This document shows positions 761 to 46,558 of a DNA stretch of 50,772 nucleotides, in pieces. Each line of letters begins with the position of its first letter. The first letter of the stretch is position 1. Source of the stretch: a virus; the IMG/VR virus record IMGVR_UViG_3300031772_000052, positions 1 to 50,772 of that record, one strand, 5' to 3'. Under the pieces are notes generated by a model. The model was not told the DNA's origin. It ran no database searches and worked only from the letters and a program-made list of their open reading frames with translations. The translations under genes were made by a program, and so were the position numbers.

Positions 761-1295
761 TCGAGCGGGAATTCTTGCGGGAATCCGGCTGACCAAGCAA
801 GAGACCCTTGGGTGGGTCATCGCCCTTGGTGAGCCGGGCCGTGGTCGCTGGCTCGAATGCATTAAGCTCGACGGGAAAAAACCTCCCGTGGTCGCCGCGG
901 TAGACGACCAGAAGCTTGTATACGAGGCAGACCTGTTCAGCTTCGACACGGGAACCCGAAAGAGACATTCACTGGTCGCTCAGGATGACCCGAGCGACAG
1001 TCGTTTCCTTGTGGAGATCTCCACGGGACCTGACTGCATTCGAGGATGCCAGGGAGACACTGATGGTATCTCGGGTAAGCCCGCAAAGGTTGCGGTAGGA
1101 AAGGGAGCCCTCGGCGAGAACGGCAAGCTCGGCGCATGGGAGCACTCTCTTTGGATCATGAAGGACGGCGACGTCGTCATGGTTTCGCCGGCGGGTAACG
1201 ATGATGCCTACGTCGTTCTCTTCGTTAGCGGAGCTTTGAGTAAGATGCCGACGAAAGAATTTCGGCTGATTTCCAGTAGCAAGTTCCAGGCATAA
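741..1295 (+). CDS. Unknown soluble protein, 184 aa
   Basis: Translation from ATG 741 gives 184 aa starting MKLYRADRAG. The start lies inside the end of the previous gene (20-bp overlap) and has no clear Shine-Dalgarno sequence, so translation may depend on coupling; the exact start is uncertain. The sequence has alternating beta-type segments (LGWVIALGEPGRGRWLECIK, DGDVVMVSPAGND) and no membrane segment. No family is recognised. It could be a small virion or accessory protein, but nothing in the sequence decides this. Confidence 0.6.
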   Translation: MKLYRADRAGILAGIRLTKQETLGWVIALGEPGRGRWLECIKLDGKKPPVVAAVDDQKLVYEADLFSFDTGTRKRHSLVAQDDPSDSRFLVEISTGPDCIRGCQGDTDGISGKPAKVAVGKGALGENGKLGAWEHSLWIMKDGDVVMVSPAGNDDAYVVLFVSGALSKMPTKEFRLISSSKFQA

Positions 1296-1318
1296 GAGAG
1301 GAAGCCTGGAGGTTCATC

Positions 1319-14686: not shown

Positions 14687-14773
14687 AAGTTCATACTACA
14701 TCACAACTCGCGCTCGGGTATAAGACCGTTGAACGCAAGTGTGCTGTGGTCGAACCGCAGCAGAAAGGTCCAA
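14687..14773. promoter_or_regulatory. Divergent intergenic region with candidate promoter
   Basis: This 87-bp gap separates the minus-strand spike-like gene from ssb and must hold signals for both directions. On the + strand CGGGTATAAGA (14715-14725) contains a -10-like TATAAG 50 bases before the ssb ATG. The identical 11-mer recurs at 15952-15962, inside a coding region. No convincing -35 is seen, and a phage polymerase may use different elements. Confidence 0.35.
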
Positions 14774-15619: not shown

Positions 15620-16115
15620 CGGACTCACGCAAGGAGAACTCGAACGAATCCAAGCGTTCGAGGAGGCCGTCAAGAAGTGGCAGGAGAAGGCGCTGGAGAA
15701 GGCCCCGGAGCGAGTAAAAACTCTGGGGCCTATTCTGCGCAAATCCGTTCGTACCGGCTCGATCAGTGCCCTTGTTCGGTTCTGCAAGAAGCACGAGATC
15801 GATGTGAAGCGACGCGACATGGAATCGTTTCGGGACTGGCTCATCACTCAGCGGTTCGACATGAAGGATCTTGAGCCGGCGGCGCGTGAGCGTCTTCGGT
15901 TCAAAACACTTCGTGGACAGCCAAAAGAGGAGATGAGTCAGTCGTACGCTGCGGGTATAAGAAAGGGAGAGAAGCTAAAATGTAGAGATTGTATTTGGTT
16001 CGTCAAAGCTCCGCTCGACGGAGACAAGAACGATCCAGACAGCAACAAGGCTTGTGTCGAATTCGGAACCAAAGGTTCTGACGACGCTTGCTACGGCTTC
16101 ACTCGCCCTAATTAA
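15591..16115 (+). CDS. Unknown 174-aa protein with C-terminal Cys4 motif
   Basis: ATG 15591 follows GGAG within AGGAAAT context. Residues 15-45 form a charged helix (QAFEEAVKKWQEKALEK). The C-terminus has CRDCIWFVK (Cys131, Cys134), ACVEFG (Cys155) and ACYGF (Cys167), spaced like a small zinc-binding knuckle. Similar C-x2-C...C...C-x-GF tails occur in phage proteins of unclear role. The ~130-residue N-terminal part has no recognised fold. It overlaps the previous gene by 29 bp and ends in a TAA that lies inside the first terminator stem. Confidence 0.65.
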   Translation: MDSKSQPRPDGLTQGELERIQAFEEAVKKWQEKALEKAPERVKTLGPILRKSVRTGSISALVRFCKKHEIDVKRRDMESFRDWLITQRFDMKDLEPAARERLRFKTLRGQPKEEMSQSYAAGIRKGEKLKCRDCIWFVKAPLDGDKNDPDSNKACVEFGTKGSDDACYGFTRPN

Positions 16116-23200: not shown

Positions 23201-23375
23201 TACGAACGGCTTGCTTCTGGGACTCCCAGTCAGCCGGATCAACCGTGTCATCGATCCAGACCTTGTTCGCTTTTAGCTGTCGGTACCGTCCGTCAATGTT
23301 TAAGGCCTTGGTGAACGCCGAAACGGTGTCTTGCTTCATGCGTTCGAACTGACTCTGATAATCAAATGTCTCCAT
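17208..23375 (-). CDS. Single-chain beta-beta' RNA polymerase, 2055 aa
   Basis: The polypeptide holds RpoB-type motifs followed by RpoC-type motifs. Beta side: HPSHLGFIDPIHTPES (~391), GYNFEDGIVITES (~638) and IGDKLTNRHGAKGII (~774). Beta' side: GHIDLAEPMPNPVFETP (~1049), TKIPVLPPQYRPV (~1163), RPVILNRAPTLHKFG (~1342), active-site NADFDGD (~1381, three Mg-binding Asp), SGARGNIGQLKQ (~1577), and the trigger-loop region around YGARRVTIDKQLQT (~1626). The beta' zinc-2 ligands remain (DADC~1663 and CHAPKGTCSKC ~1727-1737); the N-terminal zinc-1 cysteines of bacterial beta' are missing. It is about 700 residues shorter than E. coli beta plus beta'. ATG 23375 (GAGAG, 5-base spacer) is preferred to GTG 23381. 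It catalyses DNA-directed RNA synthesis; no alpha or omega gene is seen. A sigma-like gene is at 45713-46558. Confidence 0.95.
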   Translation of the reverse strand: METFDYQSQFERMKQDTVSAFTKALNIDGRYRQLKANKVWIDDTVDPADWESQKQAVRNDKTWGVPVYASLELLDRQTGKVISEANKVKVAVLPKGTDIGSFIIGGKHYQVNNQLRRKPGVYVTQLANKAQYKTEFNIPGKPFDIALDQESGVFYLVKKQGKQPLYPILSQMGVSDGMMAKQWGQDLLDANKGFLPARQATAAKKVAAFFTGEQYDSPESAAKGFAEFLADKKLAPEVTQKTLGSPIERVTPDILVRGAHELLRTYRGERQPDDRQSIEFKKILSVADFIKERMITEDGGFAPKIQEFRRKIASRLNNRRNLPSQVSRVVAAQEFTPIFDTFFTQTDLSHTPEQNNPLHILNGLSKVTISGEGGAQSEHAIKEEERMVHPSHLGFIDPIHTPESGNIGTVMQLPLGASKNNKGQLLARLYDPKTKQYVSVSPADFQSKIVAMPDQFREGKFVGTKVKAMAGGDMQVVNAADVDLVLPNAKQAFSISSNVIPFLPSAQGVRGLMATKMLEQAIPLVHREAPLVQVKLGKDTIEKHIGSGYSISAKEDGVIEKVTANRIHIKTKDGSVEQPLFNNYPLNSKAFLHAVPLVEAGHKVKKGDVIADSNFTRDGHLAIGTNLRAGYVPFKGYNFEDGIVITESAAAKLSSEHMYKFGDALDKDAELSMNKYTAWRQNDLTNNQVAKLDGDGVVKKGQVLHKGDPMWVGVRDNKTDPDSIQLSKLTRLPPKRPFKETWDNEVDGEVVDVVRTAGKVKVYVKTVEPAQIGDKLTNRHGAKGIITKIIPDGESPHDAAGKPIDIILNPHGIVTRINPSQILETAAAKIAEKTGKPYIVENFSNEDYTQKVKDDLKKHNLKDTELLFDPTTNKPIGEVLVGPQFILKLTKQATSQFSAREEGKYDINRAPLRGGEEGSKAVDLLTMYSALAHGARANLREMATYKASKNDQFWQWLRAGSAAGLVKPPPEPTFAYKKFESYLKAAGVNVERRGSKMVLQPMTDKETTRLSSGAVKEPMFLRAKDLQQEKGGFMDPIIFGRDHDQWGHIDLAEPMPNPVFETPIKTLTGMNNKQFSGLVNGKLFFDPKTNEWNAEQHGLTGGAAVKELLSRIDIDEDIKKWTDAAKTASTPVKLDKANKQLKYLHALKKNKLRPEDAYVQTKIPVLPPQYRPVSPLPDGSLSVQGINWLYRDLGLINNELKWQHGVHYIPEDVKSELRENLYNGAKALAGLGEPIAFYQQSRTPKGFIQQIAGKPAKEGFFQREVIRRKQNLVGRGTIIPEPKLGIDEVGLPEDMAWNLFRPFAIRQMVGLGKKPDEAMNEYDARTTMARSSLEAVMKDRPVILNRAPTLHKFGLMAFNPKITDGDAVKIPPLVVKGFNADFDGDTMTVHVPLLTDAVEEARKMYPSRNLYNPGTGGIVISPGADAALGLFMLSKGSPAERDKILSELPEGIRGKFKNKLMDKNGLRDLFEDLAKNDPTHFGKVVDKLKDAGDQHAYRIGFTVGLKDLTPALPITQGIAKKMQADVAKLHMHGKFDAAKQKEATDLIGAADKAINKALPGELASQHNNFFQMVNSGARGNIGQLKQIISGPTMTDNHHGDPSSIPVTHSYAEGLPFSEYWQTSYGARRVTIDKQLQTQHPGAFTKDILATSGTNIISDADCKTHDGIKLLVGSQGKDIEDRFLARDIKVGPTVIAHAGTVVTPGLMNIFRERKVKEVEVRSPLTCHAPKGTCSKCYGLYENGQLPPLGENVGVISGQAMSEPLTQMTLRTFHSGGASGSRGIISGYDKIDKLLKMPKVIPSKATLSEHDGKVEKIDKAAGNVGENIWIGGKKHYIPKDLVDPRVRVGSKIAKGDAISLGLIKPQELQRLKGMLPAQNYITDQIQQSYKEQDISLKRRAIETVIRSVTNTTKVIDPGDSAFIHGDIAPYTVVEDFNRKLTGKKPVNDAVGMVLKEDVGHFKHGTLISDQVAKAIIGLGKHEVKVGNKPIIHEPFLTGVGQIPFMRNDWMSHLGYQRLEEGILQGVAKGAESDIHDYSPIPAFAYGAEFGLGEKGKY

Positions 23376-23454
23376 GAGCACTCTCAGTGTTGCGGAATAA
23401 GTTCATTGAAGGCAAACCTATTCATCACGGAACTTTACCAAGGAGAGCGGCCAG
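23376..23454. promoter_or_regulatory. Divergent region between RNA polymerase and + membrane gene
   Basis: This 79-bp gap must start transcription of the polymerase operon (minus) and of the 152-aa gene (plus). On the + strand TGCGGAATAAG (23391-23401) lies 54 bases before ATG 23455 and resembles the CGGGTATAAGA before ssb. An AGGAG for the + gene lies at about 23441-23445. On the minus strand no strong sigma-70 -35/-10 pair stands out. Confidence 0.35.
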
Positions 23455-23913
23455 ATGATAAGCATGTTTCGTAAGGCAAGAGAGCGAAGACTAGCACGTG
23501 CAACCAGCTCCGTATCGGCCGCCGTCGTTGCTACCGCAGTCGCCGCTACTGCAGGTGTGATGATCTTGAGGTCAGTTCCGTCGCTGAGCGACCTCGGGAC
23601 CACGGTCGTCAGTTCCGCGACTGGATCGCTAGTTGGCGTGTGGGCCAAGCACATTGCAGGCGTCCTGGTGTGCGGCGCCCTGATTGCTCTTGGTAATTGG
23701 ATTTACACGATGTTCAGCGCTCAATGGAGTCAAGCAGGCATGCCAGATCTCCCTCCTATGATTTCAAGGCCAGGTCCCGCAAACGGAGCCATTCCTATCT
23801 CGCCAAACCAGGCCCCAGCACAAGGAGCCCGCGGTTCGATGTTCACTCAAAACGTTTCTGCGCCGGCCGGCCAGAAAGCAGCTCCGTCGTTTCTCGACGA
23901 GTATCGCGACTAA
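23455..23913 (+). CDS. Small two-span membrane protein, 152 aa
   Basis: The basic N-terminus (MISMFRKARERRLARA) is followed by a hydrophobic helix (SAAVVATAVAATAGVMIL, residues ~20-38) and a second (HIAGVLVCGALIALGNWIY, ~66-84). The C-terminal ~65 residues are Pro/Gly/Ala-rich and probably disordered (PPMISRPGPANGAIPISPNQ). The start follows AGGAG by 9 bases. It is the only gene of a + island between the RNA polymerase and the portal cluster and ends in its own terminator. It could be a holin-like or host-membrane protein; no family is recognised. Confidence 0.65.
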   Translation: MISMFRKARERRLARATSSVSAAVVATAVAATAGVMILRSVPSLSDLGTTVVSSATGSLVGVWAKHIAGVLVCGALIALGNWIYTMFSAQWSQAGMPDLPPMISRPGPANGAIPISPNQAPAQGARGSMFTQNVSAPAGQKAAPSFLDEYRD

Positions 23914-30290: not shown

Positions 30291-30368
30291 TTCAATAGGG
30301 GTCAATCTACCAGGAGCACTCGGTTTTCCCAGGCATAAGGTAGGTAACAACAACAATACCTAAAAACA

Positions 30369-43679: not shown

Positions 43680-45713
43680 CTAACATGCCGGCACCCCAGC
43701 ACTGGGACGAGAAACGTCTATGATATCGGAAGCAAAGCGCCCACCCGCACCGATGGCGAGATGGTCCGTACTGGCCGCCATCGCCCCAAGGCTGGCGGCG
43801 TCGATCGCCACGGTAGAGACAACGGCACCAAGTTTCTTTGCCTCGTCGGTGAGGAACTTGACGATGCCCTTGACGGTCTCTGCGTCCTTTTGAATCGCTG
43901 CAATCGCTGAGCGAATCTCGTGGCTCTTTCGGAGTCCGCCAAACTCGATGGCGTTCATCGAAAAGAGCTTCAAGTTGGTTAGCTTAGCCACCAGGTCGTC
44001 TCGAATGCTGGTGAGCTTCCTTCGAATGAAGGCGTCGTCGATAACGTTGGCGGCGCCGGTCATGCACTTGATCGCAGCGCCGAGGTAGGACATCTCTGCA
44101 ATGGGCATTCCCATGAAGTCAGCAAAAAGCCCAACCGATAGAGTGTCCTTGGCCCTGTCGAGTCCCATGCTGTTGAGCGCATCGATCATGTTGTCGATAG
44201 ATGGCCGCGCCAAGATAGAGAGCAGAATCATCGGCTGAACCGCGGCCTTGATGGCAATGCAGGTTTCAATCGAGGTTCCAAGGATTCCGTTCATCTGAAT
44301 CGCCGTGCCGGAAACGATGACCTGAAACGTTTTGAGGTCTGCATCGGTCGAGCTCAAGTCATCCATTCGACTCATCAGAATCTTGGCCTGCTTGGCAATG
44401 CCCGTGCACTTTGCTGCCAGGTCGGTGACGTCCTCGATTCCTTTGACCACGTGGTCGGAATTGATTTCGTCAAAGGCCTTGGTGAGTTCACCGTAGGTGG
44501 CCTTCATCGCCTTGTCGGTGGCGGCATCCAAGGATCCAGCGACGAACTGCGAGGCTTGAATCTTCGCCGCCAGCGCCTGGGCGGAAAGAAGAGCCGAAGA
44601 CCACGGGATCATCTGCGCCGCGATGACGTTGGTTCGGTCGTTGGTTTGGGCGATGGCCTGGCCGGTCCTGAGGTCGTTGTAGTGACGCTGATTTGCTCGA
44701 GCGCCGTCCACGTCGGTCTTGAGTCGAGTCAGTCTGGCAAGAAGCGTATCGACCGTCTGCAAGCGAATCGCGATGACCTTTTGAGCCGCGGGGCTCGAGC
44801 TGTAGTTGTTCACCACGTCTCGGAGATGCTGAATGTAGTAGTTGATCACGCTCGTCTGCTGCTTCACCGCCTCGATCTCTGCGACGATGATGTTCGACAG
44901 CTGCGGCACTACCATCATGGAGATTCTGGCATTCGCCGCGGTCGTCATAACCGGCGGCAAGATACCCTGGGCCTCAAGCACGTTCTCGATTGCAAGAATG
45001 CTCTGGTGTCCGCCGGGAAGCACCGGGGACAACGCCCTGAGAGCGCTGTCGAGAGCCGCCCTGCCCCTTTCAAATGCCTTCGTGTCGAAGGAGATCCCTG
45101 CGCTGGTGCTTCTTCGGCTCTTGGTGAACTCGGCGTTCGCTATCGCCAAGTAGGACGACACGGCGTCGAGGTCGATGTCCATATTCGTGATGGCCGCGTC
45201 CCTGGTGTGCATAAGAACCAAGAGCGTATTGGAAATTTGGATGATGTGTCTTCTCAGGCAGTTGAGGTTCTCGAGCTTGATGTCGACGACCTGAAGAAGG
45301 GTCTCGCACATTCTTTGAGCCACGATGAACGGCGTCTCTGGAATCAGCGACATCGTCATCATCGCATTGCCTGCAATGCCCTGCTCAAGGCCGAGCACAT
45401 CTTGAATTCGATTTCCTGATGGGGGAGGAAGGACTCCAGGCGTCATGGCCGAGAGCTCACCAGAGGCGAACTGATCTACCATCCCCTGGGAAGCCTGCGT
45501 CGTATCTCCAGCTGCAGTTCCCTGTGCCAGCGAGGCGACTTCCGACAGAAGGCCAGCAACGCTCAGATCGCCAGACTTCGCAAAAGGGTTTTGAAACGAC
45601 TTAACCGCGGTGACGAACTGCTCCGTCAGCTTGGTGATCTCCCTTGAGACGAAGGTTGGAAACGTGGCCCCAAGGCAGGCGATTTCCGTAAGCAGTTCAT
45701 CGGCAGTTGCCAT
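43680..45713 (-). CDS. Large helical baseplate/tail protein, 677 aa
   Basis: The product is almost all alpha-helix (SREITKLTEQFVTAVKSFQN, AEIEAVKQQTSVINYYIQH). There is no signal peptide; a hydrophobic helix occurs late (AAVQPMILLSILARPS). It lies directly downstream of the sigma-like gene with a 1-bp overlap and upstream of gp25. It may be a tape-measure-like or internal tail protein, or a structural partner of the sigma-like factor, but there is no motif. It is short for a tape measure. Confidence 0.6.
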   Translation of the reverse strand: MATADELLTEIACLGATFPTFVSREITKLTEQFVTAVKSFQNPFAKSGDLSVAGLLSEVASLAQGTAAGDTTQASQGMVDQFASGELSAMTPGVLPPPSGNRIQDVLGLEQGIAGNAMMTMSLIPETPFIVAQRMCETLLQVVDIKLENLNCLRRHIIQISNTLLVLMHTRDAAITNMDIDLDAVSSYLAIANAEFTKSRRSTSAGISFDTKAFERGRAALDSALRALSPVLPGGHQSILAIENVLEAQGILPPVMTTAANARISMMVVPQLSNIIVAEIEAVKQQTSVINYYIQHLRDVVNNYSSSPAAQKVIAIRLQTVDTLLARLTRLKTDVDGARANQRHYNDLRTGQAIAQTNDRTNVIAAQMIPWSSALLSAQALAAKIQASQFVAGSLDAATDKAMKATYGELTKAFDEINSDHVVKGIEDVTDLAAKCTGIAKQAKILMSRMDDLSSTDADLKTFQVIVSGTAIQMNGILGTSIETCIAIKAAVQPMILLSILARPSIDNMIDALNSMGLDRAKDTLSVGLFADFMGMPIAEMSYLGAAIKCMTGAANVIDDAFIRRKLTSIRDDLVAKLTNLKLFSMNAIEFGGLRKSHEIRSAIAAIQKDAETVKGIVKFLTDEAKKLGAVVSTVAIDAASLGAMAASTDHLAIGAGGRFASDIIDVSRPSAGVPAC

Positions 45714-46558
45714 CAGTAGTACCGCTTGACCCGGTCAGCGATTTGCTTGCGCAGGGCTCGAATCTTCTGCGGCGACATTCCGATAAGCGGAGAGAGCTGC
45801 ATTGGATCTTCAGTGGCCGGTTTGCCGAAGACTGTCAGGCCATTCTTCACATCACCGATCGGAGTGTGCTCGAGCACGACCTGTTGCTCGGGTGTCAGAG
45901 AGTTGTGCATGAAAATGAGTTGGTCGGCCAGGCGGCTCGAGCTCGTGTGTTGCTCCGCGCCGGGCAGATCTGCCATGAGATCCCTGCGTACTTCTCTTCG
46001 CAGAGTCTCCACGGTTCTGGGGGTGATTCGTTGCATCTCTTTGCTGAGGTCGCCGACCTCTGCCATGCTGCTCTTCATGTCGTCCGCGAGCTCGGCGTTC
46101 GAGGGCTCTCTTCCAAGGGACTCCCTGAGGGCCGCCTGTCGGTTCTGGTAGAGCCCAATCATCGTGGCGCGCTGCTCGGGGATCTTGCCGATATTCTGGT
46201 ACCGAATGAGATAGCGCCCCGTGTGCTGCATGTTCCAGTTGATATGCGTCGGAAGCGAGGCCTTCGAAGGATCGAAGGTCTCAAGCGACTTCACGTACTG
46301 GCGCAGCATGTCCGACTTGACCGCGGCCTTGGGCAGCGTAGTTGACCCGAGGTACTTACGACCCGCGTCGTGGATGATCCCTTGGTGGCGGTTGTAGAGC
46401 CAGGAAAAGTCCTGTTGGTTTGGATTCTGGCGCCAACGCTTCCAAACCTCGAGTTCCTCTTGGCGCATGCCTTCGCGGTCGACGCCGGGCGCCTCTGACT
46501 CCTTGGTCAGCCATGCTTCGAGTTCGCGATCGATATCGTACTCAGCCGGCGAATCCAC
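45713..46558 (-). CDS. Sigma-70-like transcription initiation factor
   Basis: GTG 46558 follows GGAG by 7 bases. The 281-aa product resembles sigma region 2 at ~50-125: FSWLYNRHQGIIHDAGRKYL, then YVKSLETFDPSKASLPTHIN. This is followed by region-3-like IPEQRATMIGLYQNRQAALR and LGREPSNAELADDM. Region 4 is recognisable (LTPEQQVVLEHTPIG, then a 20-residue insert, then MSPQKIRALRKQIADRVKR). Sigma factors direct RNA polymerase to promoters. It lies between the hub gene and the 677-aa gene, 22 kb from the RNA polymerase. I infer it is a partner of that polymerase and that it may be packaged. Region 1 is absent. Confidence 0.75.
   Translation of the reverse strand: MDSPAEYDIDRELEAWLTKESEAPGVDREGMRQEELEVWKRWRQNPNQQDFSWLYNRHQGIIHDAGRKYLGSTTLPKAAVKSDMLRQYVKSLETFDPSKASLPTHINWNMQHTGRYLIRYQNIGKIPEQRATMIGLYQNRQAALRESLGREPSNAELADDMKSSMAEVGDLSKEMQRITPRTVETLRREVRRDLMADLPGAEQHTSSSRLADQLIFMHNSLTPEQQVVLEHTPIGDVKNGLTVFGKPATEDPMQLSPLIGMSPQKIRALRKQIADRVKRYY

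Follow-up and report, generated by a model that had tools for sequence, protein, structure and literature searches.

Why would a phage carry a sigma factor gene in the middle of its baseplate genes? The question is raised by a viral contig of 50,772 nt (IMG/VR record IMGVR_UViG_3300031772_000052, called the window here), in which the initial annotation had noticed a 281-aa sigma-70-like protein between a hub-like gene and gp25/J-like genes, and had proposed that this protein is made late and may be packaged.

A diverged sigma-70 family protein in the baseplate cassette

The product of this gene is a diverged sigma-70 family protein. The open reading frame stands as first described, except that its strand is corrected to minus, since the plus strand contains internal stops (Table 1). 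All three sequences on which the sigma assignment had been based are found in the protein, and their allocation was broadly right: FDPSK belongs to region 2.2, GREPSNAELADD to region 3 and MSPQKIRALRK, at the C-terminus, to region 4.

Taken as a single sequence, the window protein gives weak evidence of sigma identity, with matches to Pfam Sigma70_r3 (E=1.7e-4, under the gathering score), to PHROG 351 'RNA polymerase sigma factor' (E=2.5e-4) and to SigA in the PDB (E=0.006). At the level of the family the evidence is strong. The profile search against sigma-70 regions 2-4 that the initial annotation had suggested was made with an alignment of 13 sequences (A2; the window sigma plus 12 relatives), and it matched bacterial SigA and RpoS in the PDB over regions 2, 3 and 4 with E=1.8e-17; Sigma70_r3 is detected in 13/13 members. 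An AlphaFold2 model of the window sigma has a pLDDT of 75.8 and a pTM of only 0.40. In a Foldseek search of the PDB with this model, nearly all top hits are sigma factors (best E 8e-7, prob 1.00), so that both sigma homology and a sigma-like fold were found. The TM-scores of about 0.3 and the rmsd of ~21 over the whole chain are read as a different placement of the domains in the model, not as a failed domain match.

One feature of region 2.3 deserves comment. The aromatic WW dyad of this region is used in -10 melting and is typical of -10 readers, and it is not conserved in the A2 alignment. The dyad is not universal among the sigma-70 family, however, so its loss does not exclude membership.

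Table 1. Features of the window, with coordinates and strand
Feature	Position	Strand	Remarks
Early-type motif GGCATAAG	1289..1296	+	30 nt upstream of ATG at 1319
Early-type motif GGTATAAG	14717..14724	+	
Early-type motif GGTATAAG	15954..15961	+	
Fused beta-beta' RNA polymerase, 2057 aa	17208..23381	-	presumed sigma partner; beta' clamp coiled coil kept
Clamp coiled coil of fused RNA polymerase			LPPQYRPVSPLPDGSLSVQGINWLYRDLGLINNELK; expected dock for sigma region 2
Variant motif GGAATAAG	23394..23401	+	points away from RNA polymerase start
Early-type motif GGCATAAG	30332..30339	+	
Structural gene, 802 aa	38483..40891	-	homologue of Arash gp14 (virion protein)
Baseplate J-like protein, 693 aa	41157..43238	-	Pfam Baseplate_J above cut-off; PHROG 6 E=2e-11
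gp25-like baseplate gene, 155 aa	43235..43702	-	homologue of D69 VPHD69_0013; weak PHROG 2669 match
Downstream gene, 677 aa	43680..45713	-	kept in close relative G021
Baseplate-cassette sigma-70-family protein, 281 aa	45713..46558	-	GTG start at 46558, stop at 45713
Hub-like gene, 891 aa	46542..49217	-	homologue of Arash gp8 (cell wall hydrolase, virion protein)
Structural gene, 392 aa	49232..50410	-	homologue of Arash gp6 (virion protein)

The location inside the baseplate cassette, between the hub-like and the gp25/J-like genes, is confirmed and is conserved among relatives. In the window, the sigma gene overlaps the hub-like gene upstream by 17 nt and the 677-aa gene downstream by 1 nt, and it is therefore read within one operon with them. 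By tblastn, the sigma has homologues in Vibrio phages D69, D148 and D181 and in Salmonella phage Arash, where the protein is gp10 and carries the annotation 'RNA polymerase sigma factor RpoS'. Scans of IMG/VR with a single sigma or a single RNA polymerase (RNAP) protein returned no matches, and alignment queries succeeded: the family alignments gave 17 and then 6 more sigma-bearing contigs, and a scan that started from the RNAP gave three further contigs (G021, G026 and G030). Several of these contigs are near-duplicates. The common order is the 49232-like gene, the hub/hydrolase gene, sigma, and the gp25-like, J-like and 38483-like genes. Sigma occupies the same position in Arash and D69 and, among 26 other viral contigs, in nearly all, and a J-like gene lies downstream of it in 24 of the 27 loci examined, the others being L017, where the contig ends, L012 and L126. 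Because the relatives' sigmas share only ~19-33% identity with the window protein, the arrangement must be old. A chance or artefactual ORF is ruled out by this conservation at the same place in many phages. Searches of the window for Rfam families and tRNAs found none.

The virion-borne orthologue and the fused RNA polymerase

Evidence on packaging comes from phage Arash, whose virions were purified by sucrose gradient and whose virion proteins were identified by LC-MS (PMC10585845). There gp10 was detected with 24 unique peptides, 100% coverage and 467 spectra, alongside the RNAP subunits beta (gp206, 128 peptides) and beta' (gp216, 40 peptides); the list of 116 proteins probably includes some carry-over, a possibility that its authors concede for abundant proteins (PMC10585845). 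We compared unique peptides per length, because the spectra column of the table is odd for weakly detected proteins. By this measure gp10 ranks top of the 106 mapped Arash proteins, with 10.3 unique peptides per 100 aa, compared to 9.8 for the MCP, 8.4 for beta, 6.6 for beta' and 0.2-1.4 for enzymes that are likely carry-over. Its density is nearer to that of the RNAP than to that of most baseplate proteins. Spectra per residue are 2.00 for sigma, 2.31 for beta and 2.00 for beta'; an exact stoichiometry from such counts was set aside, as weakly detected proteins also reach ~1 spectra/aa.

Arash encodes a second sigma, gp196, which is more canonical than gp10, keeps the WW dyad and is absent from the LC-MS list of virion proteins. 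That gp196 was undetected argues that gp10 is present in virions specifically, yet gp196 might simply be scarce. The earlier proposal of a late and packaged sigma thus gains support from the Arash orthologue, and orthology and synteny suggest that the window's own phage packages its sigma as well.

What would such a sigma work with? The gene for the fused RNAP sits between the terminase and portal genes. In the window the enzyme is a single beta-beta' fusion; in Arash, D69 and relatives of their type, the C-terminal part of beta' has its own gene, so that the enzyme is made of two polypeptides, beta+beta'(N) being fused and beta'(C) separate. Among the IMG/VR contigs found through the sigma, 13/13 with a length of 135 kb or more encode an RNAP of the same family; among those found through the RNAP, 6/6 with 150 kb or more encode the sigma. 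Altogether the two genes occur together in 15/15 distinct contigs from IMG/VR that reach 135 kb, plus Arash and D69. RNAP contigs without sigma are shorter fragments; among the ones examined over their whole length, G018, G019 and G020 stop short of the baseplate region, and the G021 contig ends within the sigma gene. Across 13 genomes, pairwise sigma identity correlates with that of RNAP (rho 0.66), TerL (0.83) and J (0.66). Judged from these contigs, sigma and RNAP are inherited together.

Bacterial sigma region 2 docks on the clamp coiled coil of beta', and in the phage RNAP this coiled coil can be aligned to that of bacterial beta'. The beta flap tip, judged by eye, looks shorter than the bacterial one, and no alpha subunit was found in the 10 genomes searched. 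We infer that the phage's own fused RNAP is the enzyme with which this sigma works, and we predict core binding and promoter-specific initiation.

The phage RNAP query matched one RNAP set in each of Arash and D69. It also matched several INPHARED 'phage' records, such as OR846602, OR844998, AFYI01000006 and AGRM01000005, where the hits look like ordinary bacterial rpoB/rpoC, which suggests host DNA in that collection.

Promoter-like motifs and their candidate sigma factors

The relatives' genomes carry a promoter-like motif, TGGTATAAG, on the non-structural strand. In Arash, GGTATAAG is found in 15 of 72 upstream regions on this strand (0.2 expected), and 40 of the 41 GGTATAA sites in the genome lie on it; an TTCAATAA-like element stands upstream of the early -10 motif in Arash-type genomes, at a spacing of ~17-18 nt. 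TG[GT][TC]ATAA is followed by G in almost every case; the host sigma-70 consensus has T at this position. In D69, G001, G002, G006, G013, G014, G015, G017, G019 and G030, the non-structural strand is likewise distinguished by GG(T/C)ATAAG or TGTTATAAG. In the window, the GG(T/C)ATAAG core has four sites, all on the plus (non-structural) strand, compared to 0.8 expected from shuffling. The motif is also present in G019, G021 and G001 at the place of the variant near the window's RNAP gene. The early motif is not recognisable in G035, G037 and G038, the most divergent relatives, with divergent baseplate sigmas. Short palindromic repeats were seen in many intergenic regions of two of these genomes, around TTGATTCCGGAATCAA in G038 (L151-L158) and around TTGACTCCGGAGTCAA in G037 (L159-L165), in 14-18 regions each.

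A different motif, TAAAATA, precedes genes on the structural strand and, in Arash, also the lone plus-strand endolysin gene. Its enrichment on the structural strand is seen in all seven genomes with a gp196-type second sigma (Arash, D69, G013, G014, G015, G017 and G030), most weakly in G014 and, with our gene calls, in Arash. In G001, G002, G019, G035, G037 and G038, no gp196-type sigma was found and TAAAATA shows no clear enrichment; G006, a 117-kb fragment with no second sigma detected, is ambiguous. G001 and G002 have the baseplate sigma only and still show the early motif, as does G019, whose contig stops short of the cassette. Enrichment of the early motif is therefore independent of the second sigma, and enrichment of TAAAATA tracks the second sigma, not the baseplate sigma. 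In the seven genomes with both sigmas, TGGTATAAG and TAAAATA are at times placed back to back between divergent genes (in Arash, L001 and L027-L030). As a separate observation, the non-structural block of D69 contains a gene annotated as an Srd anti-sigma factor (23371-23910; L002/L086), possibly a regulator of host sigma.

This pattern is a correlation, drawn from incomplete genomes that fall into two or three clades. In its simplest reading, the baseplate sigma would read the TGGTATAAG-type early motif and the second sigma TAAAATA. We consider it fairly probable that the packaged sigma and the fused RNAP transcribe the early genes and that, in relatives that have one, the second sigma then serves the late genes. 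In such a cycle, the baseplate operon would yield baseplate proteins and sigma together late in infection, as co-translation with the baseplate implies late synthesis of the sigma. The sigma would bind the alpha-less fused beta-beta' RNAP, and the complex would be loaded into virions, delivered with the DNA and, on the non-structural strand, would transcribe the early genes from promoters of the TGG(T/C)ATAAG type. In two-sigma relatives, the unpackaged gp196-type sigma would direct transcription of the late structural genes, the baseplate sigma included, from TAAAATA promoters. Holoenzyme formation, injection, the pairing of sigmas with motifs and packaging in the window's phage are all predicted steps here; that the lineage packages a complete sigma-RNAP holoenzyme, injects it and later re-programs the same core with an unpackaged second sigma is a proposition whose chances we put as evenly balanced.

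The pairing could also be the opposite one, which might be favoured by the absence of the WW dyad from the baseplate sigma while gp196 keeps it. The baseplate sigma would then be a late sigma resembling T4 gp55, directing RNAP to TAAAATA and reaching virions only through its binding to RNAP. Its gene is encoded among late genes, its region 2.3 is diverged, and TAAAATA is a short single element, as in T4 late promoters. This reading would nevertheless leave unexplained why TAAAATA is not clearly enriched in G001 and G002 despite their baseplate sigma and is enriched in every genome with the second one, and we think it unlikely. A sigma that serves the host core seems to us more doubtful still, although host RNAP is the usual partner of phage sigmas (PMC7824862) and the many enzymes in the Arash virion list would fit carry-over of an abundant protein. 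The phage has its own RNAP with a sigma dock, inherited together with the sigma, and the detection of gp10 but not of gp196 speaks against general carry-over. It would be surprising, finally, if the protein had been exapted as a structural component of the baseplate or tail and had lost its role in transcription: regions 2-4 are still recognisable by profile throughout the lineage, sigma co-occurs with RNAP, and the peptide density of gp10 is more RNAP-like than that of most baseplate proteins, even if a gene fixed among baseplate genes and a protein present in virions are what exaptation would predict. The packaged early sigma remains our preferred reading.

Comparison with known systems

The closest known case is Arash gp10 itself (PMC10585845; OQ632216), an orthologue by homology and position, virion-borne with an RNAP of the fused type encoded in the same genome. 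Arash differs from the window in having its RNAP in two polypeptides instead of one, and in having gp196. The Arash paper reports sigma and RNAP in virions and does not link the cassette, the RNAP and the promoters (PMC10585845). By gene content alone, the window's phage fits the mReC RNAP-encoding Caudovirales, tailed phages that, as here, have deeply diverged beta/beta' genes and baseplate, portal and terminase genes; the main text on that group does not mention sigma, packaging or promoters (PMC7481178). The protein class is thus already known, and its presence in virions was first seen in Arash; further reports of a packaged sigma were not found in the open literature searched. What appears to be new, within the literature searchable, is that the cassette is conserved and its sigma co-inherited with the fused RNAP, together with the two-sigma/two-promoter pattern.

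Phage-encoded sigma-70-related factors that switch promoter class are likewise found in T4 (gp55) and SPO1 (gp28/gp34). These act on the host core and are encoded outside any baseplate cassette, and they are not known to be virion components. A comparative study treats an own RNAP and an own sigma as converse strategies, with group 1 jumbo phages having RNAP without sigma and group 2 the reverse (PMC7824862). The lineage described here combines the two, with the sigma fixed in the baseplate block and an orthologue that is virion-borne. It offers a concrete answer to how a deeply diverged, apparently alpha-less RNAP starts transcription, and the cultured phage Arash and the predicted promoters make the sigma-RNAP idea testable.

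Packaging of a phage RNAP for early transcription is shared with N4 and with phiKZ/AR9-type jumbo phages, but the latter rely on non-sigma specificity subunits and N4 on a single-subunit enzyme, and neither uses a sigma-70 factor (PMC7598289, PMC4496689). The two RNAP sets without sigma that characterize the phiKZ/AR9 type differ from the single set and the sigma genes of Arash and D69. If our model is true, the lineage would represent a one-core, two-sigma version of the virion-RNAP strategy in which the packaged sigma is encoded in the baseplate operon: compared to phiKZ, AR9 and N4, one core appears to serve here with one or two true sigmas.
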